Shown: piece after piece, positions 25,590 to 36,259 of the stretch
Numbering within the stretch: position 1 is the first letter of the stretch
Layout of the letters: each line of letters starts with the position of its first letter
Origin: Fidelibacterota bacterium
Lineage (GTDB): Bacteria > Pseudomonadota > Alphaproteobacteria > Rhodospirillales > Rhodospirillaceae
NCBI GenBank assembly: GCA_947476895.1
Contig: CANJRX010000015.1
Location: forward strand, 1-49,023
Direction of reading: 5' to 3'
Length of the DNA stretch: 49,023 bases
Program-made: the position numbers and the translations under genes
The notes under the pieces: generated by a model
The model's database searches: none
What the model was told of the DNA's origin: nothing
Seen by the model: only the letters and a program-made list of their open reading frames with translations

Positions 25590-26252
25590 CTAAGTTATCT
25601 GTAACACGATGCCGAATATCTCGGCAAAGGCGGCTTTCAAGGCGGTATCCAGCTCGGTCAGGCCCGCCTTAACCCCCAGATCGCGTAGGGACGTCACGCC
25701 GTGCGTGGTCACACCGCAAGGGACGATGCCGGTGAAATGCTCCAGGTCGGGTGACACGTTGATGGCGAGGCCGTGATAGGTGACCCAGTGACGCACCCGT
25801 ACGCCGATGGCGCCGATCTTGTCCTCGCGCTGCAGGCCGTTCAGATCGCGGGCCACCCAAATGCCGATGCGCCCGTCGCGGCGCTCGCCGGTAACACCCA
25901 AAGTTGCTAGTGCGCCGATGATGCAGTCCTCAAGATCGCGCACAAAGCAGCGCACATCCTCGCCGTGCTTTTTAAGGTCGAGCATGACGTAAACCACGCG
26001 CTGCCCGGGACCGTGATAGGTGTACTGGCCGCCGCGCCCGGTCTTGAAGACCGGGAACTTGTCAGGGCGCAGCAGATCGCCTTCCTGGGCGCTGGTGCCC
26101 GCGGTGTAAAGCGGCGGGTGCTCCAGGAACCATATGAGTTCTGGCGCCGTCCCGGCGTGGATGGCCGCGACCCGAGCCTCCATAGCCTCCACCGCCTCGG
26201 GATATGCAACGAGGCCGGGAGAAACTTTCAGTTCGACAGGCACTTGGCTCAT
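25590..26252 (-). CDS. lipB: Octanoyl-[ACP]:protein octanoyltransferase LipB
   Basis: This 220-aa enzyme moves the octanoyl group from ACP to lipoyl domains, the first step of lipoate synthesis. Motifs are [32 protein letters not shown], the catalytic Lys145 in [12 protein letters not shown] and Cys179 in TGIVPCGV. The frame runs 98 codons further upstream through the tRNA, so the ATG at 26252 ([20 protein letters not shown]) is chosen on family length. No lipA is present in the window. Confidence 0.95.
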
Positions 26253-26370
26253 ATCCGGGCTTAAATGGGGATGGGGTGTTTCCTTGCCAACCCATACCCG
26301 ATTTGCTATTGGACCGCACGCCCGACGACCTCTGAAAAGGGGACAGCCGGGATTTCTACCTAAGTACCGT

Positions 26371-26455
26371 GCGGTCATGGCGGAATTGGTAGACGCGCAG
26401 CGTTGAGGTCGCTGTGGGGCAACCCGTGGAAGTTCGAGTCTTCTTGACCGCACCA
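26371..26455 (+). tRNA. tRNA-Leu (anticodon GAG)
   Basis: A full cloverleaf can be drawn. The acceptor stem is GCGGTCA/TGACCGC with discriminator A and encoded CCA (26453-26455). The anticodon stem CAGCG/CGCTG carries loop TTGAGGT with GAG at 26405-26407, and the T arm has loop TTCGAGT. The long variable arm (26415-26427) is typical of type II tRNAs such as Leu. It reads CUC and CUU codons. Confidence 0.97.
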
Positions 26456-26462
26456 CTCTTCT

Positions 26463-26493
26463 AAAAGGCGCTCCCTTCGGGGTGCGCCTTTTT
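26463..26493 (+). terminator. Intrinsic terminator after tRNA-Leu
   Basis: A hairpin with a TTCG tetraloop (26476-26479), a stem of about nine pairs in its lower part plus CCC/GGG above a single mismatch, and a TTTTT tail starts 7 nt after the CCA end. It should end the tRNA transcript. Confidence 0.85.
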
Positions 26494-26665
26494 GCTTGGG
26501 GGTATGGCGGCAGCTCTAGGCGCGGTTGTTTCCCTTGATCTCCCAAAACCCCTCAGGCACAAGGAACGGAGCGGTTTCACAATGCCCCTTTGGCTGGGTG
26601 AGGACGCTCCTCAAACACAGTCCTAATCTCGCTTTTTCATCAACCCGCGCCGCAACGGGTCCGCC

Positions 26666-28212: not shown

Positions 28213-28707
28213 ATGGCCGAAAAAGACGTTGTTTACATTACCCCGCCGAACAATCTTCGGCAAAAGCAGAAGTTAGCTGGGGTTTCCGGAACCATCGATC
28301 CGGTCTGGATGGAAGCTGCCGAACGCTCGATCCTCACAGCCAAATTCGACTATCTCGAAGCTGCACAAGAAGACATGGCGCGTCTGGCAGCGGCCTATGA
28401 CAAGGCCATCAAAGATCCGGCCAACCGGGTCCAGCACATGGAAGAATTATATGGCGTCGTGCAGTCCATCAAAGGGCAGGGCACGAGCTTCGGATATCCG
28501 CTGATGACGGCCGTCGGCAGCCAGCTGGCCCGCTTCATCGAAGACTGCGGCGAGAACCTGAGCGATGCCCAGATGGACGCCGTGAAGGTCCATCAGGAAG
28601 CCTTGCGTCTGGTGATGCAGCAAAAGATGGAAGGCGACGGCGGACCCATCGGCCAAAAACTCGTGGCCGGCCTCGGTCTCGTGATCAAAAAAATTAAGGG
28701 CGAGTAG
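28213..28707 (+). CDS. Hpt-domain-like protein lacking the phospho-accepting histidine
   Basis: This 164-aa, mostly helical protein has no signal or membrane segment. The central part (about 70-140) resembles histidine phosphotransfer (Hpt) proteins of alphaproteobacteria, whose core reads roughly H-x-x-K-G-Q-G-x-x-F-G-Y. Here the motif is VVQSIKGQGTSFGYPLM, so Gln84 stands where the phosphorylated His should be, while Lys87 and Gly88 are kept. His75 is nine residues earlier and not at the right place. It may be a pseudo-Hpt regulator or a structural relative. It converges with and overlaps the next gene by 14 nt. Confidence 0.6.
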   Translation: MAEKDVVYITPPNNLRQKQKLAGVSGTIDPVWMEAAERSILTAKFDYLEAAQEDMARLAAAYDKAIKDPANRVQHMEELYGVVQSIKGQGTSFGYPLMTAVGSQLARFIEDCGENLSDAQMDAVKVHQEALRLVMQQKMEGDGGPIGQKLVAGLGLVIKKIKGE

Positions 28708-30052
28708 TAGGCGCGGGCGCAGCGGTCGCGCCCGGCTGCGGCTTCGCCGCTGCAGCTGCAGGCGCATTTGCAGCCGGCAGTTTTGATGCGGCGGTTTGAG
28801 TCGGATCAATCGGCGTTCTGAATTCCCAGCGGCGATAAGCTTCCACGCCGTCCAGCACCACGCCGTCGAAACCTAAGTCCATGATGCCGGCAAAATACTT
28901 GCCGATGATGGCCTTCCACGCCGGGTTCCAATATTCAATCGCGTACTGGCCGGCGCCTTCGGGGCCGTAAGCTTGAATCCAGCTGGGTTCACCGATGCGC
29001 CACTCGCGCTTCCAGTAGTAACGCTGATCCTCGGCATAACCGATGCTGACGCGCGCCAGCACCAAACGGCGGGCGCCCATTTCTTTGAACTTCAGGCTGT
29101 GAACCTCTTCTTTGGTGAGGTTCTGTTTGCCTTTGTAGAAAGCGTCTGTGACCAGCACGTCGTAGTTCGTGCCTTGCAAAGCTGCCAGCCATTTTTCGCG
29201 CGATGGATAACTTGCGTTATCCAGCATCACGAGCATGTTCTTGGCCCCGCCCAGAATCTCGACGTTGCCGGAATTTTCAGGTTGGGGACGGGCTTTCGGC
29301 ACAGCAGAAAAGACATCGCTCTCATCAGCGTCGGTATGGGACACCACATTGGCGCGGATGGCCGTTTGCAATGCCGTCTGCGGCATGGCTGGCGTCTTGC
29401 AATGCTCGATGGACAGCACCTTCAAGCCAAGCTTGACCATGCTTTGCAAATCGTCGCGCGGCACACGCAAGGGCGCGCAGAACTGACCATTGAGGATCAG
29501 ACCATTCAGCTGCTGGATATAAAGGCGTAAAGGCATGCCCACCGGCATGATGGAATCCGCCGGCACGCGCATCAAAGGATCGCGCTTGATTTCGGCCAGA
29601 TCGAATTCGCGCCGGCTCCACGCCAAAAGGTCAAACCCGCCGCGCGTGGTGACGATGAATTTGGGATTGCGCGCTTGGGCGTACACCGACAGCTCGCCGA
29701 TGATGTCGCGCATGCTGTCGCGGTAGTTCGGAATTTCATTCAGTGGAATATCGAGGATGTCGACTTCACCCAAAAGAATGTTCGTGCGATCGGGCAGGGC
29801 TGCGCCACCGGTGGCGGGTTTGGCTTGCGGCGGGGCGACGGGGATCGGCGGTGCTTCGGGTAGCGGCGGGGGCGGCTCTTCCGGGCCGCTACCTTCCAAG
29901 CCAGCTCCAGCACCGGCGGGCGGGCCAAGCTGGCGTTGCGGAGCGGCCGGCGCAGCCGGAGCGCCAGGCTCTGCGGCATAGGCCGCGAGACCAACGGCCG
30001 CAAAGGCCGCCAAGAGAGACGCGCGCTTAAAGTATTTCAGCGAAGTGCTCAC
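28694..30052 (-). CDS. Secreted GH114-like (TM1410-type) protein with swapped half-barrels
   Basis: This 452-aa protein has a signal-like N-terminus (LLAAFAAVGLAAYA), a Pro/Ala-rich stretch (about 28-86), and a Pro/Ala tail. Residues about 270-412 hold features of the first half of the GH114/TM1410 TIM barrel: YDVLVTDAF, LARVSIGYAEDQRYYW, YWNPAWKAI and LGFDGVVLDGVEAYRRW. Residues about 108-250 (RDSMRDIIGELSVYAQARNP and LKVLSIEHC) resemble the second half, which normally follows. The order therefore looks permuted. Members are proposed to cut galactosaminoglycan; activity here is unproven. The GTG start at 30052 overlaps the upstream stop (GTGA). Confidence 0.65.
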   Translation of the reverse strand: MSTSLKYFKRASLLAAFAAVGLAAYAAEPGAPAAPAAPQRQLGPPAGAGAGLEGSGPEEPPPPLPEAPPIPVAPPQAKPATGGAALPDRTNILLGEVDILDIPLNEIPNYRDSMRDIIGELSVYAQARNPKFIVTTRGGFDLLAWSRREFDLAEIKRDPLMRVPADSIMPVGMPLRLYIQQLNGLILNGQFCAPLRVPRDDLQSMVKLGLKVLSIEHCKTPAMPQTALQTAIRANVVSHTDADESDVFSAVPKARPQPENSGNVEILGGAKNMLVMLDNASYPSREKWLAALQGTNYDVLVTDAFYKGKQNLTKEEVHSLKFKEMGARRLVLARVSIGYAEDQRYYWKREWRIGEPSWIQAYGPEGAGQYAIEYWNPAWKAIIGKYFAGIMDLGFDGVVLDGVEAYRRWEFRTPIDPTQTAASKLPAANAPAAAAAKPQPGATAAPAPTTRP

Positions 30053-31146
30053 GACACCCGATCAGCGACATAGTCGGCAATGGCAATACTGGAGGTCAAA
30101 CCGGGCGATTCTATGCCGTAAAGAGCAACGAAACCATTAACGCCCGTCTCCGCCGGGGATTGGATGATGAAATCCTGGGAGGATTCCCCAGGTCCCTGAA
30201 TTTTGGGGCGAATTCCAGTGTAACCGGGGCGCAAAGCGCCGTCCGGGAGCCCCGGCCAATATTTACGAATGGCCTCATAGAACGACGCCTCGCGGCTCTC
30301 GTTCACGCGGTAGTCGATCGTGTCGACCCATTCCAAATCGGGACCGAAGCGCCCCTGACCGGCGAGGTCGAGGGTGTAGTGCAAACCGAGGCTGGCGTGG
30401 CCGGGCAGGGGATAGATCAGGCGCGTAAAGGGCGGCTTGCCCGAGAGGTAGAAGTAATTGCCCTTGGCAAAGTGCTGCGGCGGGATCGTGCCCGGTTTCA
30501 CGCCTGTGATGCCCCGGCTGACACCTTGCGCGCCCAAGCCGGCGCAATTGACCACCGTGCGAGCCTTGAGACTCATTTTGGCGTCGCCGCCAACGTCCAA
30601 CACCACGCCGTCGTCTTCACCGCGGCCGCTCACGATGGGGCTGTTGTAGGCAATGGCTGCGCCGTGGGCTTCGGCATCGCCCAACAAGGCCAACATGTAA
30701 GCGTGACTATCGATAATGCCCGTCAGCGGCGAGTGCAGCGCCGCCACACAATGCAGGTTGGGTTCGATGCGCTTGATATCTTCCTGGGTCATCCAAACCA
30801 TGTGCACGCCGCTGTTGGCGGCGTGGGTTTGAAGTTTTTTGAGGGCAGGCAATTCGGACTCGTCGGTGGCGTAGACCAACTTTGTCGTGCGCTTATAGGT
30901 AATGCCGTAGACGTCGCAGAAGGCATAGAGCTTGTCGCGGCCTTCAATGCAGAGGCGCTCTTTCAGGCTGCCGTGGGTGTAAAAGATCCCGGCATGAATG
31001 ACTTCGCTGTTGCGCGAGCTGGTGGCGGTGCCGAAAGCATCTTCGGACTCTAAGATCAGCACTTCGCGGCCTTTGCGCGCCAACGCACGCGCCGTGGCAA
31101 GGCCCACGACGCCCGCGCCAATCACTACGCAATCTGCTGTTTCCAT
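30049..31146 (-). CDS. FAD-dependent oxidoreductase, L-2-hydroxyglutarate oxidase/dehydrogenase-like
   Basis: This 365-aa protein of the DAO fold starts with the dinucleotide-binding motif VVIGAGVVGLATARALA, followed by ATSSRNSEVIHAGIFYTHGS, which is typical of the LhgO/L2HGDH group. A second FAD-contact region is TVVNCAGLGAQG, and the C-terminal GIESPGLTSSIAIADYVA closes the fold. It would oxidise L-2-hydroxyglutarate or a similar 2-hydroxyacid. The ATG at 31146 has GGGG 7 nt upstream; an in-frame GTG at 31158 has none. It is coupled to the GH114-like gene by GTGA. Confidence 0.85.
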   Translation of the reverse strand: METADCVVIGAGVVGLATARALARKGREVLILESEDAFGTATSSRNSEVIHAGIFYTHGSLKERLCIEGRDKLYAFCDVYGITYKRTTKLVYATDESELPALKKLQTHAANSGVHMVWMTQEDIKRIEPNLHCVAALHSPLTGIIDSHAYMLALLGDAEAHGAAIAYNSPIVSGRGEDDGVVLDVGGDAKMSLKARTVVNCAGLGAQGVSRGITGVKPGTIPPQHFAKGNYFYLSGKPPFTRLIYPLPGHASLGLHYTLDLAGQGRFGPDLEWVDTIDYRVNESREASFYEAIRKYWPGLPDGALRPGYTGIRPKIQGPGESSQDFIIQSPAETGVNGFVALYGIESPGLTSSIAIADYVADRVS

Positions 31147-31236
31147 AGAGCGCCCCACTATCTAACGGTAAGTGTGAGGGCGGTTAGGCGATTGGTCAAG
31201 TTGCGCCAGACTCACAGCAGGGATAATGTCCGCCGC

Positions 31237-32040
31237 ATGACGTCTCTCTCAACCTCTCCGCGTTCCACGCCCCGTGTCATTGTCTTCGGTAACGAAAAAG
31301 GCGGCACGGGCAAGTCCACCTTGGCCATGCACTTGGCCGTGGCTTTGCTCAATCGCGGGCTGAAAGTCGCGACCATCGATCTAGACGCCCGCCAGGGCAC
31401 GATTTCGCGTTACGTCGCCAACCGCAGGCTGTTCGCCGAGCGCAGCGGCACGGCGGTGCCCATGCCCGAGCATCTCGCGCTCAATACGTCGCCCCATCAG
31501 ATCATTGAAACGGATTTGGGCAACGCGCTCGACCATGTGGCGGCGTGCTCCGTGGTGATCATCGACACACCCGGCCACGACGGCGCGTTGTCGCAAGCCG
31601 GTCACACCTATGCCGACGTTCTCGTCACGCCGATCAATGACAGCCTCATCGACTTGGATGTGCTGGCTCACGTTGATCCGCACAAGCAAACCATTCACCG
31701 CCCCAGCCACTATGCCGAGCGCGTATGGAAAGCCAAACAGGCGCGGGCCAAACGCGACGGTGGTTCCATGGATTGGGTCGTCGTGCGCAATCGCTTGGGC
31801 CAATTGGAAGCGCGTAACAAAAAACTGATGGAACGTCTGGTCGCTGATCTCGCGAAACGCATCGGATTTCGCGTGGCCGACGGCATTCATGAGCGCGTGA
31901 TCTACCGCGAACTTTTCCTCGACGGTTTGACGGCTGAAGATTTGGCGACCCTTGCGGATGCGCGCGAAGTCGCTATGTCACATGTGGCGGCCCGCCAAGA
32001 GATCCGCAATCTGATCAGCGTGTTAGGATTGAACCCGTGA
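31237..32040 (+). CDS. mipZ: MipZ, division-plane positioning ATPase (ParA/MinD superfamily)
   Basis: This 267-aa P-loop ATPase has the deviant Walker A GNEKGGTGKST (about 18-28), DLDARQG (switch I) and VIIDTPGHDGAL (Walker B). The MipZ-specific segments PINDSLIDLDVLAHVDP, MDWVVVRNRLGQLEARN and VIYRELFLDGLTAEDL are all present. In Caulobacter, MipZ binds ParB at the origins and blocks FtsZ assembly near the poles. The ATG at 31237 is chosen over an upstream open frame by comparison with the family. The TGA overlaps the GTG of the J-domain gene. Confidence 0.94.
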   Translation: MTSLSTSPRSTPRVIVFGNEKGGTGKSTLAMHLAVALLNRGLKVATIDLDARQGTISRYVANRRLFAERSGTAVPMPEHLALNTSPHQIIETDLGNALDHVAACSVVIIDTPGHDGALSQAGHTYADVLVTPINDSLIDLDVLAHVDPHKQTIHRPSHYAERVWKAKQARAKRDGGSMDWVVVRNRLGQLEARNKKLMERLVADLAKRIGFRVADGIHERVIYRELFLDGLTAEDLATLADAREVAMSHVAARQEIRNLISVLGLNP

Positions 32041-32528
32041 TAGCTCTGCTCCTTGGACTGCTGTTGCTTGTGATCGTAGTCCAAGTGTTGCGCTGGTTCG
32101 CCCACGCCGACGTTAAAGCCGCGCGCAAGGCGATCAACTGGGGCGGGCTTGGTTTTATTGCTCTGATTATTCTGGGCTTGGCCGTGACGGGACGCATGGG
32201 TGCGGCCCTGGCCGGCGTCGCGGCCTTGTTCGCCTGGGGCGGACGCATTTTGGGTCTCATGCATGCCGGTAAACGGTTCGCCGACATGTTCAGCTCGCGC
32301 GGTCAAAAAGAGCAGACTCAAAGCGGCGCGCGACCATCACCCAAGCAAGCCATGACCGCGGACGAAGCCTATCGCGTGCTCGGCCTCGCGCCGGGCGCCA
32401 GCGACGAGGACATCAAAGCCGCCTATCGCCGCCTCATGGGCCAAATGCACCCCGACCACGGCGGCAGCGACTATCTGGCGGCCCAGATCAACCAGGCCAA
32501 GGACGTCCTGCTGAAACGATCCAACTAA
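32037..32528 (+). CDS. Membrane-anchored J-domain protein (Tim14/DjlA-like layout)
   Basis: This 163-aa protein has a hydrophobic helix at the N-terminus (about 1-20) and a further hydrophobic region at about 35-75. The C-terminal J domain (about 105-160) reads DEAYRVLGLAPGASDEDIKA and has the HPD tripeptide in MGQMHPDHGG, so it should stimulate an Hsp70 such as DnaK at the membrane. The order of membrane segment then J domain matches mitochondrial Tim14/Pam18. The GTG start overlaps the mipZ stop (GTGA). Confidence 0.85.
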   Translation: MIALLLGLLLLVIVVQVLRWFAHADVKAARKAINWGGLGFIALIILGLAVTGRMGAALAGVAALFAWGGRILGLMHAGKRFADMFSSRGQKEQTQSGARPSPKQAMTADEAYRVLGLAPGASDEDIKAAYRRLMGQMHPDHGGSDYLAAQINQAKDVLLKRSN

Positions 32529-32583
32529 GTACGTCACGCAGGTTGCAAGCCCGCCCGGGGCGTGTCACAAATTTGTCCCGAGA

Positions 32584-32606
32584 CCGCCTTAAAAGGCGGC
32601 TTTATT
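32584..32606 (+). terminator. Probable terminator of mipZ-J-domain operon
   Basis: A 7-bp inverted repeat (CCGCCTT at 32584-32590 with AAGGCGG at 32593-32599) is followed by CTTTATTGTGTTG. The T-tract is imperfect. It lies between the J-domain stop and galU. Confidence 0.5.
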
Positions 32607-32638
32607 GTGTTGTTTCAATAGCTTTCCAGAGGTTCTCT

Positions 32639-33517
32639 ATGGCTCAGCGCGTGCGCAAAGCGGTCTTACCTGTTGCCGGTCTGGGCACACGCTTTCTCCC
32701 CGCGACCAAGGTGATCCCGAAAGAGATGATCCCGATCATCGATAAGCCTGTGGTCCAGTACGCCATCGAAGAAGCGCGGGCGGCAGGGATTGAAGAATTC
32801 ATCTTCGTCAGCGCCCCCGGCAAAGAATCCATTGCCCTGCATTTTTCGCCGCATGCGGGGCTGGAAGCCGCCCTGGAAGAAAAGGGCAAATTCGCCGAGT
32901 TGAAATTGGTGCGCGATGCTTCGCTGCCGGACGGCGCAATGCATACGGTGATTCAGCATAATCCATTAGGTCTTGGCCACGCTGTATGGTGCGCCTGGAA
33001 AGTCGTGGGCAATGAACCCTTCGCGGTCATGTTGCCCGATGACATGGTGCTGTCGCAGACGCCGTGCCTGAAACAGTTGATCGATGCGCACGCCAAAGTT
33101 GGCGGCCACGTGGTCGCGGTGGAAGATGTGCCGCGCGATCAGACCAACCGCTACGGCATCCTTGACGTGCTGACCGACGACGGCAAACTCGCCAAGGCGC
33201 GCGGCCTCGTCGAAAAGCCGCAGCCGGATAAAGCGCCGTCGACGCTAGCCATTATCGGACGCTACATCCTCGATCCTTCGGTGTTCACGGAACTTGATAA
33301 ACACACCAAGGGTGCGGGCAACGAAATTCAGCTGACCGATGGCTTGAACAAGACTCTCGACAAAGTTCCGTTCCACGGTTTGCGTTTTGAAGGCCGCCGC
33401 TACGATTGCGGCACGCGCGTCGGCTTCGTTGAAGCCAATCTCGCGTTTGGTCTCGCGCATCCCGAGATGGCTGATCGTCTGCGCCCCTTGGTGCAGAAGC
33501 TGATGGATATGAAATAG
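32639..33517 (+). CDS. galU: UTP-glucose-1-phosphate uridylyltransferase
   Basis: This 292-aa enzyme makes UDP-glucose from UTP and glucose-1-phosphate. The nucleotide-binding N-terminus VLPVAGLGTRFLPATKVIPK and the KEMIPIIDKPVVQYAIEEA motif are intact, as is FEGRRYDCGTRVGFVEAN near the C-terminus. The frame is open back to 32543, but the ATG at 32639 has AGAGG about 6 nt upstream and gives the family length. ugd and the hexose-phosphate mutase follow on the same strand. Confidence 0.96.
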   Translation: MAQRVRKAVLPVAGLGTRFLPATKVIPKEMIPIIDKPVVQYAIEEARAAGIEEFIFVSAPGKESIALHFSPHAGLEAALEEKGKFAELKLVRDASLPDGAMHTVIQHNPLGLGHAVWCAWKVVGNEPFAVMLPDDMVLSQTPCLKQLIDAHAKVGGHVVAVEDVPRDQTNRYGILDVLTDDGKLAKARGLVEKPQPDKAPSTLAIIGRYILDPSVFTELDKHTKGAGNEIQLTDGLNKTLDKVPFHGLRFEGRRYDCGTRVGFVEANLAFGLAHPEMADRLRPLVQKLMDMK

Positions 33518-33535
33518 ACAAACGAGAGAACTGTC

Positions 33536-34846
33536 ATGCGTATCGCGATGATTGGAACCGGCTACGTTGGCCTGGTCTCCGGCGCCTGCTTCTCTGAGTT
33601 CGGTATCGACGTGGTTTGCGTCGACCGTGACGAAAAGAAAATCGAGCGTTTAAAGCGCGGCGAAATTCCCATATTCGAGCCGGGCCTGGATGCGTTGGTG
33701 AAAACCAATGCTGACGCCGGACGGCTTACGTTCACCACTGACCTTAAGTCATCGATTGCCGGCGCGGATGCCGTGTTCATCGCAGTGGGCACGCCTAGCC
33801 GCCGTGGCGATGGTCATGCAGATTTGTCGTACGTCTATGGCGCGGCCATGGATATCGCCGGGCATCTCACCGGCTATGCAGTTGTGGTGACGAAGTCCAC
33901 CGTGCCCGTGGGCACAGGCCGCCAGGTTGAACGCATCATTCGGGCGGCGCGCCCCGAATTGGAATTCGACGTAGCGTCGAACCCGGAATTCTTACGTGAA
34001 GGTTCGGCCATCAACGATTTCATGCGGCCCGACCGCGTGGTCATCGGCTGCGAAAGCGAACGCGCCCGCGAAGTCATGCGCCAGCTGTACCGCGCGCTGT
34101 TCCTGATCGAGACGCCGATCCTGTTCACCAAACTGGAAACGTCCGAGATCATCAAATACGCCGCCAATACATTCCTCGCGACCAAGATCACGTTCATCAA
34201 CGAGATGGCGGACCTGTGCGAGAAGGTAGGCGCCGACGTGCATGATGTGGCGCGTGGCATCGGTCTCGATGGGCGCATTGGGAAGAAGTTCCTGCATCCA
34301 GGTCCCGGCTACGGCGGGTCGTGTTTCCCGAAGGATACGCTGGCGCTGGTCAAGACCGCGCAGGATTACGGCGCGCCCTTGCGCATCATTGAAACTGTCG
34401 TGGCCGTGAACGAGAAGCGCAAAGCCGCCATGGCCGAAAAGATCACGGCGGCCTGCGGCGGCGATGTGAAGGGCAAGACGATTGCGGTCTTGGGGCTGAC
34501 CTTCAAACCCAACACCGACGACATGCGTGATTCTCCGAGCCTTGTGATCGTGCCGGCTTTACAGGCGGCGGGGGCCACTGTGCGGGCCTATGACCCTGAA
34601 GGCACGCATGAGGCCAAAAAGCTGTTGGCCGATGTCACTTATGCCACCGACGCTTACGATGCCATGAAGGGCGCGGATGCGGTGGTGATCCTGACCGAGT
34701 GGAACCAGTTCCGTAATTTGGACACAAAGCGGATGAAAACTCTGCTTAAGGTGCCGGTGATGGTGGACTTGCGGAACGTCTACTCGCCCGCCGATATGAA
34801 AGCCGCTGGATTTAGCTACACTTGCGTCGGCCGTCCCTCTCTCTAG
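33536..34846 (+). CDS. ugd: UDP-glucose 6-dehydrogenase
   Basis: This 436-aa NAD-dependent enzyme oxidises UDP-glucose to UDP-glucuronate in two steps. The N-terminal Rossmann motif is IGTGYVGLVSGACFSEFG, the catalytic Cys263 is in PGYGGSCFPKD, and a second Rossmann-like domain starts at VLGLTFKPNTDDMRDSP. It lies 18 nt after galU, whose product is its substrate. The product is a precursor of acidic polysaccharide or modified lipid A. Confidence 0.96.
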   Translation: MRIAMIGTGYVGLVSGACFSEFGIDVVCVDRDEKKIERLKRGEIPIFEPGLDALVKTNADAGRLTFTTDLKSSIAGADAVFIAVGTPSRRGDGHADLSYVYGAAMDIAGHLTGYAVVVTKSTVPVGTGRQVERIIRAARPELEFDVASNPEFLREGSAINDFMRPDRVVIGCESERAREVMRQLYRALFLIETPILFTKLETSEIIKYAANTFLATKITFINEMADLCEKVGADVHDVARGIGLDGRIGKKFLHPGPGYGGSCFPKDTLALVKTAQDYGAPLRIIETVVAVNEKRKAAMAEKITAACGGDVKGKTIAVLGLTFKPNTDDMRDSPSLVIVPALQAAGATVRAYDPEGTHEAKKLLADVTYATDAYDAMKGADAVVILTEWNQFRNLDTKRMKTLLKVPVMVDLRNVYSPADMKAAGFSYTCVGRPSL

Positions 34847-34864
34847 TTCAGAATCCCACACATC

Positions 34865-36259
34865 ATGACCTCACATAAATTCCACGCATCGGTTTTGCGC
34901 GAGTACGACATTCGCGGCATTGTCGATGAAACCCTTTCGACCAAGGACGCGCTGGCCATCGGCCGCATCTTCGGCACCATCGTGCGTCGGGGCGGCGGGA
35001 GCCGCGTATGTGTCGGGTATGACGGCCGCTTGAGTTCGCCAAGCATGGAAGCGGCACTCGTTGAAGGCCTTACGTCTGCGGGTGTGGATGTGGAACGCGT
35101 GGGCCGCGGTCCGACGCCGATGCTCTACTTTGCGACAATGGACAGCAAGGCCGACGGCGGCATCATGGTGACGGGTTCGCACAATCCGCCTAACCATAAC
35201 GGCTTCAAGATGATGCTGGGCAAAAAGCCGTTCTTCGGCGCGGACATCAAGAACCTCGGCGAGATGGCGGCGAAAGCCGATGTTGAAACCGGCAAAGGCA
35301 CGTCGAAAGACGTGCCGGCTTTCGATCGTTACCTTGACCGTTTAATGAAAGACTTCACCGGCAAGCGACCGATCACAGCCGTGTGGGACCCGGGCAACGG
35401 TGCTGGTGCAGAAGCCGTCACCGAACTCGTGAAGCGCTTACCGGGCAAGCACATCGTGCTCAACGGTACCATCGACGGCACGTTCCCCGCGCACCATCCC
35501 GATCCGACGGTGCCGGCAAATCTTGAACAGCTCATCACGGCCGTGAAAGCGGAGAAGGCCGAAGTCGGTTTTGCTTTCGACGGCGATGCGGACCGCATCG
35601 GTGTCGTGGACGGTAAGGGCCGTATCCTCTGGGGCGATCAGATCCTGCAGATCCTGGCCGAGGATGTACTGAAATCTCATCCCGGTGCGCCGATCATCGC
35701 CGATGTCAAAGCCAGCCAGGCGTTGTTCGATGAAGTCTCTCGCATGGGCGGCACACCGATCGTGTGGAAGACCGGTCACTCATTGATCAAAAACAAAATG
35801 GCTGAAACCAAATCGCCGCTGGCCGGCGAGATGAGCGGCCACATTTTCTTCGCCGATAAATATTACGGTTTCGACGATGCGGTTTACGCCGCCATTCGCT
35901 TCCTCGGCATCATGACGCAAGGTGAGGGCTACGACTTAACGGCGCGTTACGACCGCATGCCTGTGCTCATCAACACGCCTGAGTTGCGCTTCCCATGCGC
36001 CGACGAGCGCAAGTTTGCGGTGATCGATGAAGTGAAACTGCGCCTGTCAAAATCGGGCGCCAAAGTTTCGGATATCGATGGCGTGCGTGTGACGGGTAAG
36101 GGCGGCTGGTGGCTGCTGCGCGCCTCCAATACGCAGGCCGTTTTAGTGGCGCGTGCCGAGGCTGATACCGAGGCCAATCTCGAAGGCCTGAAAGCCGAAT
36201 TGGCCGCGCAACTCCAGCAAAGCGGCCTGGAATTGCCCACAGAATCCGTCGGGCATTAA
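34865..36259 (+). CDS. Phosphomannomutase/phosphoglucomutase (ManB/AlgC type)
   Basis: This 464-aa alpha-D-phosphohexomutase interconverts hexose 6- and 1-phosphates. The phosphoserine Ser105 is in VTGSHNPPNHNG, the Mg2+ site in DGDADRIGVVD (Asp239, 241, 243), the sugar-binding loop in GEMSGHIFFAD, and the phosphate-contact loop near the C-terminus in RASNTQAVLVARAE. It supplies glucose-1-phosphate for galU two genes upstream or mannose-1-phosphate for GDP-mannose. It starts 18 nt after ugd. Confidence 0.94.
   Translation: MTSHKFHASVLREYDIRGIVDETLSTKDALAIGRIFGTIVRRGGGSRVCVGYDGRLSSPSMEAALVEGLTSAGVDVERVGRGPTPMLYFATMDSKADGGIMVTGSHNPPNHNGFKMMLGKKPFFGADIKNLGEMAAKADVETGKGTSKDVPAFDRYLDRLMKDFTGKRPITAVWDPGNGAGAEAVTELVKRLPGKHIVLNGTIDGTFPAHHPDPTVPANLEQLITAVKAEKAEVGFAFDGDADRIGVVDGKGRILWGDQILQILAEDVLKSHPGAPIIADVKASQALFDEVSRMGGTPIVWKTGHSLIKNKMAETKSPLAGEMSGHIFFADKYYGFDDAVYAAIRFLGIMTQGEGYDLTARYDRMPVLINTPELRFPCADERKFAVIDEVKLRLSKSGAKVSDIDGVRVTGKGGWWLLRASNTQAVLVARAEADTEANLEGLKAELAAQLQQSGLELPTESVGH

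Follow-up and report, generated by a model that had tools for sequence, protein, structure and literature searches.

In the window, the 49,023-nucleotide stretch of DNA analysed here, we identified a gene whose product is, with near certainty, a circularly permuted chain. Each half of the protein matches the TM1410 family, with the two standing in swapped order, and together they form one predicted (beta/alpha)8 barrel. The reversal of the halves had been proposed from motif order in a sequence-only reading, and it was borne out by profile comparison with controls, by single relatives, by an AF2 model and by Foldseek. That reading had assigned the protein to GH114/TM1410; the TM1410 part of the assignment stands, and the GH114 part is refined to GH191, in which bacterial TM1410 homologues are now classed; the two families have the same fold (available sections of PMC12054363). 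We propose that the ancestral ends of an exported TM1410/GH191-type barrel were joined and that the chain was reopened in the loop that follows strand 4. The chain would now run from a signal peptide through a disordered linker to strands 5-8 and then strands 1-4, with the three-dimensional barrel preserved, including the beta-3 insertion over the groove. The probable role of the permuted GH191 barrel here is to bind an amino-sugar polymer, not to cleave it.

Gene layout and neighbourhood

The gene, its parts and its neighbours are as follows.

28213-28707, plus strand: small Hpt-like protein (Pfam Hpt 15.9 bits, below the cut-off)
28694..30052, minus strand: whole gene, starting with GTG and encoding the permuted GH191-like barrel protein of 452 aa (open reading frame and profile matches)
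28694..28807, minus strand: Pro/Ala-rich C-terminal tail, residues 416-452, and stop codon (sequence)
28808..29281, minus strand: ancestral first half, residues 258-415, with strands 1-4 at 272-276, 299-302, 330-336 and 397-401 and a three-strand beta-3 insertion at 339-341, 359-362 and 369-372 (hhalign, TIGR01370 match of 104.7 bits, strand mapping)
29303..29755, minus strand: ancestral second half, residues 100-250, with a helix at 110-128 and strands 5-8 at 133-137, 184-188, 211-217 and 237-241 (hhalign and strand mapping)
29756..29974, minus strand: Pro/Ala/Gly-rich linker of low confidence, residues ~27-99 (sequence; pLDDT block means of ~49-65)
29975..30052, minus strand: probable Sec-type signal peptide, residues ~1-26 (hydrophobic core and AYA-A, by eye)
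30049..31158, minus strand: DAO-family FAD oxidoreductase, upstream (best NCBIfam model L-2-hydroxyglutarate oxidase, 204.9 bits, below the cut-off of 299)
31174-36259, plus strand: MipZ-like ATPase and DnaJ-domain genes, then GalU, UDP-glucose dehydrogenase and phosphomannomutase-like genes (named from sequence)

The barrel protein is probably exported, judging from its N-terminal sequence. The AF2 model has a low-confidence helix at residues 6-21, and a hydrophobic 12-mer lies within the first 60 residues in 44 of 58 relatives (a count made without a control); a clear hydrophobic N-terminus is absent in 14 of the 58 as called. The C-terminal tail extends beyond the point where the permuted chain now ends, in the former loop after strand 4, and the pLDDT of the model drops from residue 411 onward.

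The stop codon of the FAD oxidoreductase gene overlaps the start of the barrel gene by 4 bp (GTGA), suggesting that the two genes are likely to be translationally coupled. Twenty regions were hand-picked for spread, among them 16 with permuted copies from the taxonomic order of the window, two with canonical-order copies (L136 and L137) and a 100-base dummy (L126). Besides the window itself, 13 of the 16 permuted regions carry an oxidoreductase homologue upstream on the same strand and 11 of the 16 a homologue of the MipZ-like ATPase; parts of the 31174-36259 neighbourhood recur in many sampled relatives. No matched oxidoreductase gene was found near the barrel gene in L138, which comes from another order. 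The Hpt-like gene is convergent with the barrel gene and overlaps its 3' end by 14 bp, and homologues with 29-30% identity adjoin the canonical-order barrel genes in L136 and L137. Elsewhere in the window, the LipB open reading frame (25590-26546, minus strand) has a long N-terminal extension as called; its best family match begins at residue 97, and the true start is probably further in.

Order of the two halves

The sequence-only reading had placed second-half motifs at about residues 108-250 and first-half motifs at about 270-412, and we find them there: MRDIIGELSVYAQARNPKF (residues 114-132) and GLKVLSIEHC (209-218) precede YDVLVTDAF (297-305), GYAEDQRYYW (338-347), IEYWNPAW (372-379) and GFDGVVLDGVEAY (394-406). 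The gene shows up as a partial match in searches because the family model reads the halves in the wrong order. The NCBIfam model for MJ1477/TM1410, TIGR01370, aligns only through its positions 18-177 of 315, on residues 248-411, and at 104.7 bits falls short of the 181.25 cut-off, so there is no full-length collinear match above threshold. Pfam GH114 (PF03537) matches residues 314-410 through profile positions 29-120 of 231, with 22.4 bits against a gathering score of 27, and in phmmer the TmGH191 chains align only over residues 289-422.

A family profile was built from 46 aligned permuted relatives and compared with canonical-order sets of five and then eight rows, the eight being L070-L073 (over the TIGR01370 cut-off), L117, L118, L116 (incomplete at its end) and L041. 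With the eight rows, residues 258-415 of the family matched the canonical first half (hhalign probability 99.9, E 5.3e-37; probability 0.2 against the second half), and residues 100-250 matched the canonical second half (probability 99.0, E 2.3e-18, score 108.8; probability 1.4 against the first half). For the latter segment, the best of 100 column shuffles scored 20.7 and reversed columns scored 12.7. A rotation scan over 21 cut points gave a score of 338.7 at cut 265 and 338.4 at 256 and 260, compared with 231.0 in native order, and the rotated family aligned to the canonical profile in a single 260-column alignment that reaches from canonical column 1 to column 277 of 285. Order apart, both halves are thus homologous to GH191 and TIGR01370.

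The window protein alone gives a second-half HMM match of 11.2 bits in total (E 0.005), with a best single stretch of 6.3 bits, and ranks top among the 385 open reading frames of the window. Because this signal is weak in the single sequence, the proof rests on the family profile. A second-half match (E < 0.01) lies ahead of the first-half match in 49 of 58 permuted proteins, the window's own being among the weak ones, and in one relative (G130) TIGR01370 itself matches twice in swapped order, with positions 179-283 upstream of 39-177. The set of 58 omits four partial or split proteins (L014, L029, L069 and L115), three intact ones by choice (L007, L010 and L037), repeat fetches of the same genes and matches lacking a locus; L101 and L017 were kept despite a missing part of the N-terminus and a contig-edge start, respectively.

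An AF2 model from the 46-row alignment (pTM 0.75, 285 residues at pLDDT >= 90) places all eight strands in one confident domain, in the order 5-6-7-8-1-2-3-4. Residues 108-250 lying outside the barrel would have refuted the sequence-only reading; in this predicted model they supply strands 5-8 of it, and model and strand mapping together predict a (beta/alpha)8 barrel with the three-strand beta-3 insertion. A model of the unpermuted relative L117, built on eight aligned rows, reached pTM 0.84; all 11 of its strands map to 11 strands of the window model in permuted order, by a mapping made through the profile alignment between two predicted structures. Foldseek follows chain order, and a permutation therefore predicts a partial match for the window model and a full-length one for L117. 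The outcome fits: against the crystal structure of TmGH191 (9eux_A), 156 columns align for the window model (TMt 0.45) and 286 for L117 (TMt 0.87), the window model giving after that loose full-length pairings with unrelated barrels.

It is extremely improbable that the N-terminal part is an unrelated domain whose likeness comes from (beta/alpha)8 symmetry or chance: the low score of the second-half match in the window sequence and a native-order Foldseek pairing with methylenetetrahydrofolate reductase (TMt 0.45, 344 columns, rmsd 9.4) would suit such an origin, but the half-specific matches, the 100 column shuffles and the reversal speak against it at the level of profiles, and the model packs this part into the same barrel.

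Active site and proposed polymer binding

In TmGH191, Asp156 and Glu225 are putative active-site residues (available text of PMC12054363); we located them in the printed alignment by counting their 69-residue spacing. Profile mapping carries Asp161 of the canonical L117 to Asp401 of the window protein and L117 Glu225 to Asn188. The catalytic Asp is therefore present at the end of strand 4, whereas at the end of strand 6 the acid/base position holds Asn in place of Glu, a replacement that the sequence-only reading does not mention. The Asp and Glu occur as a pair in 8 of 8 canonical rows and in 3 of 3 permuted copies from Fusobacteriota, and in 7 of the 58 other permuted rows. Among these 58, the nucleophile position is Asp in 29 and the acid/base position Glu in 13; the pair has been lost in varied ways across genera, with many different replacements, and in close kin of the window protein the acid/base residue is Asn or Asp. 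In two row sets, 45 of 46 and 50 of 58 proteins retain the beta-2 Asp (Asp303), and Tyr346 and Trp375 are retained in 46 of 46 proteins of the first set. We read these patterns as a groove that is kept in the window's lineage while the GH191 cutting mechanism is mostly lost.

The acid/base Glu is replaced by Asn in what would be, in this lineage, a mostly single-copy envelope gene linked to an FAD oxidoreductase gene, and we therefore propose binding without cleavage. The window protein probably binds a cationic or amino-sugar polymer in the periplasm, with no cleavage or only feeble cleavage; binding would be the simplest remaining role. With Asp401 kept and Asn or Asp at the acid/base position in close kin, residual or different chemistry is possible. 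The strongest alternative, which we consider unlikely, is that the barrel is an active glycosidase in this lineage as well, in which Asp401 works with water or a different residue as acid/base and the substrate is an envelope or environmental polymer. The presence of Asp401, the near-invariant Asp303, Tyr346 and Trp375 and the few permuted copies with a full pair speak for it, although conservation of Asp303 fits binding as well as catalysis. Against it stand the low frequencies of Asp and Glu at the two catalytic positions and the differing losses in different genera. An intact pair alone does not demonstrate activity either, since a lack of activity is mentioned for TmGH191 itself (available text of PMC12054363).

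The putative parent of the permuted form would have been a hydrolase acting on alpha-1,4-galactosamine polymers of Pel/galactosaminogalactan type. Enzymes of the GH191/GH114 group cut Pel and fungal galactosaminogalactan. The permuted order was also found in Cetobacterium somerae and Fusobacterium vincentii, with three copies in a search of a plasmid collection, where copies outside the window's phylum were sought. These fusobacterial proteins, annotated as 'endo alpha-1,4 polygalactosaminidase' (Cetobacterium WP_040406902.1 and two F. vincentii copies), share the permuted order with the window protein but are compact (299-319 aa) and have the Asp/Glu pair intact. The Cetobacterium locus contains genes for a GAF protein, a DUF2194 protein, PelF and PelG, and one F. 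vincentii copy comes after genes matching a PelF-type DUF3492/glycosyltransferase and PelG; by eye, no Pel gene was recognised among the listed open reading frames around the other. All three copies still resemble such hydrolases, and two of them sit in Pel loci. The F. vincentii record with its two permuted barrel genes (NZ_CP084075.1; L140, L143) is 2.1 Mb long and labelled a plasmid, and by its size looks chromosomal.

A canonical-order GH191 gene also lies near pelG in Cereibacter. We looked for a Pel link in the window's lineage and rejected it: PelG turned up in a single one of 118 related genomes and is absent from the window's own genome, indicating that the barrel gene does not belong to a Pel locus here and that Pel is not the obvious ligand.

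Distribution, origin and known relatives

The window protein has matches in 58 of 73 genomes of its family, and other proteins with the permuted order, which the sequence-only reading had suggested seeking, proved common. A permuted profile, built partly from the searched genomes, detected the barrel in 252 of 298 relatives, corresponding to 185 of 208 good-quality genomes and 96 of 112 genera; a few of the 252 matches are weak or perhaps canonical. By our reading of the matches, 237 of the 252 have one each and the others two or three, some of these being a single gene split into two parts. Matches in the wider class come from 25 of 385 genomes, some with canonical-order genes (L116-L118). 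TIGR01370 matches occur in 251 of 297 genomes of relatives; among the matches listed none is above the cut-off, and only L040 (93-308) and L041 (37-241) extend well past profile position 200. L041 has the canonical order, L040 starts at a contig edge, and L047 has only the first half in frame. Unpermuted copies thus seem rare in the window's order. In G060 contig 15 and L115 the barrel gene is split over two frames, reflecting sequencing error or decay. Nine relatives fetched by protein similarity carry names: four bear the labels Rhodospirillaceae, Caenispirillum or Caulobacteraceae, and five that of Candidatus Marinimicrobia (L031, L032, L034-L036); the labels on these five MAG records look wrong. 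In the plasmid collection the UDP-glucose dehydrogenase-like protein of the window has its nearest match in Azospirillum (77.7%) and the MipZ-like protein in Alphaproteobacteria, so the host is probably alphaproteobacterial.

Phylogenetic analyses group the permuted proteins. A 40-row tree separates 30 permuted rows (27 from the window's class and 3 fusobacterial) from 10 canonical ones with support 100/99; because it is unrooted and without a distant outgroup, and its rows were cut at matching columns in a way that possibly favours the permuted grouping, it allows a single origin and does not prove one. In a tree with distant GH114-like rows and without the fusobacterial ones, 28 permuted rows, taken from the 58 proteins, stand apart from 21 canonical rows (97/87); this tree leaves out five rows longer than 420 aa as well as L040 and L047. 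Trees of each half (23 permuted, 8 canonical and 4 distant rows) also split off the permuted rows at a single branch, with support of 99/96 and 95/87, as expected for one parent, though two close paralogues could give the same picture; the half trees differ in which canonical rows stand nearest.

The permuted form would most likely have arisen once, and the route was probably a tandem duplication with loss of the outer halves. The rotated alignment reaches canonical column 277, which suggests that the ancestral C-terminal end was retained before the join and suits this route. We found no duplication intermediate among the relatives; one candidate, L113, was rejected as its second N-part match is an Ala-rich tail. 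It is improbable that the protein instead arose when half-barrels of two different TM1410 paralogues were fused. Such a fusion would yield the same order from any C-terminal half joined to an N-terminal half, and two TM1410/GH114-type genes annotated as overlapping tandem neighbours on a plasmid of Deinococcus aquaticus (L142:1919-3729) represent an arrangement from which it could arise, but the tree of each half groups the permuted set and the rotated profile outscores either half alone against the canonical profile.

We tentatively extend permutation of one gene to a fuller account. The form would have arisen once and be present in at least two phyla, with the catalytic pair kept in Pel-associated copies of Fusobacteriota; in one alphaproteobacterial order it would have turned into an exported pseudo-glycosidase, widespread and mostly present in single copy, with an amino-sugar polymer as its ligand and translational coupling to a 2-hydroxyglutarate-oxidase-like flavoenzyme.

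The closest described proteins are those of GH191 (TM1410/MJ1477, TIGR01370; TmGH191 2aam/9eux and Env-GH191 9ep5), with which the window protein shares both half-profiles, the strand set, the beta-3 insertion and the position of the nucleophile Asp. It differs from them in its permuted order, its Asn at the acid/base position, its score below the TIGR01370 cut-off, and its probable signal peptide, long linker and Pro/Ala tail. To GH114 (PF03537; Ega3, FsGH114) the likeness lies in the fold shared with GH191 and a weak Pfam match over one half, but the window protein is below the gathering score, permuted and without the acid/base Glu. Natural circular permutation in glycosidases is described, in the available text of the respective papers, for the GH70 glucansucrases, permuted relatives of GH13 (PMC11299179), and for the GH13 enzyme MalS (PMC10223318), which have permutation in common with the window protein but are unrelated to it in family, chemistry and cut point. 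We found no description of a permuted GH114/GH191 protein in the best-ranked literature, which covered few subscription journals, so a prior mention is possible. The string 'permut' is absent from the GH191 paper (PMC12054363), the available portions of two Pel-operon papers do not mention permutation, and in that of PMC4817252 circular permutation is mentioned once, for CE4 deacetylase motifs.

The protein would be a separate case of natural glycosidase permutation beside GH70 and MalS, with unpermuted, permuted-intact and permuted-decayed forms all at hand for comparison. Should the window's form prove to be a pseudo-enzyme, it would indicate that the envelope of these bacteria holds an uncharacterised polymer or sensor.
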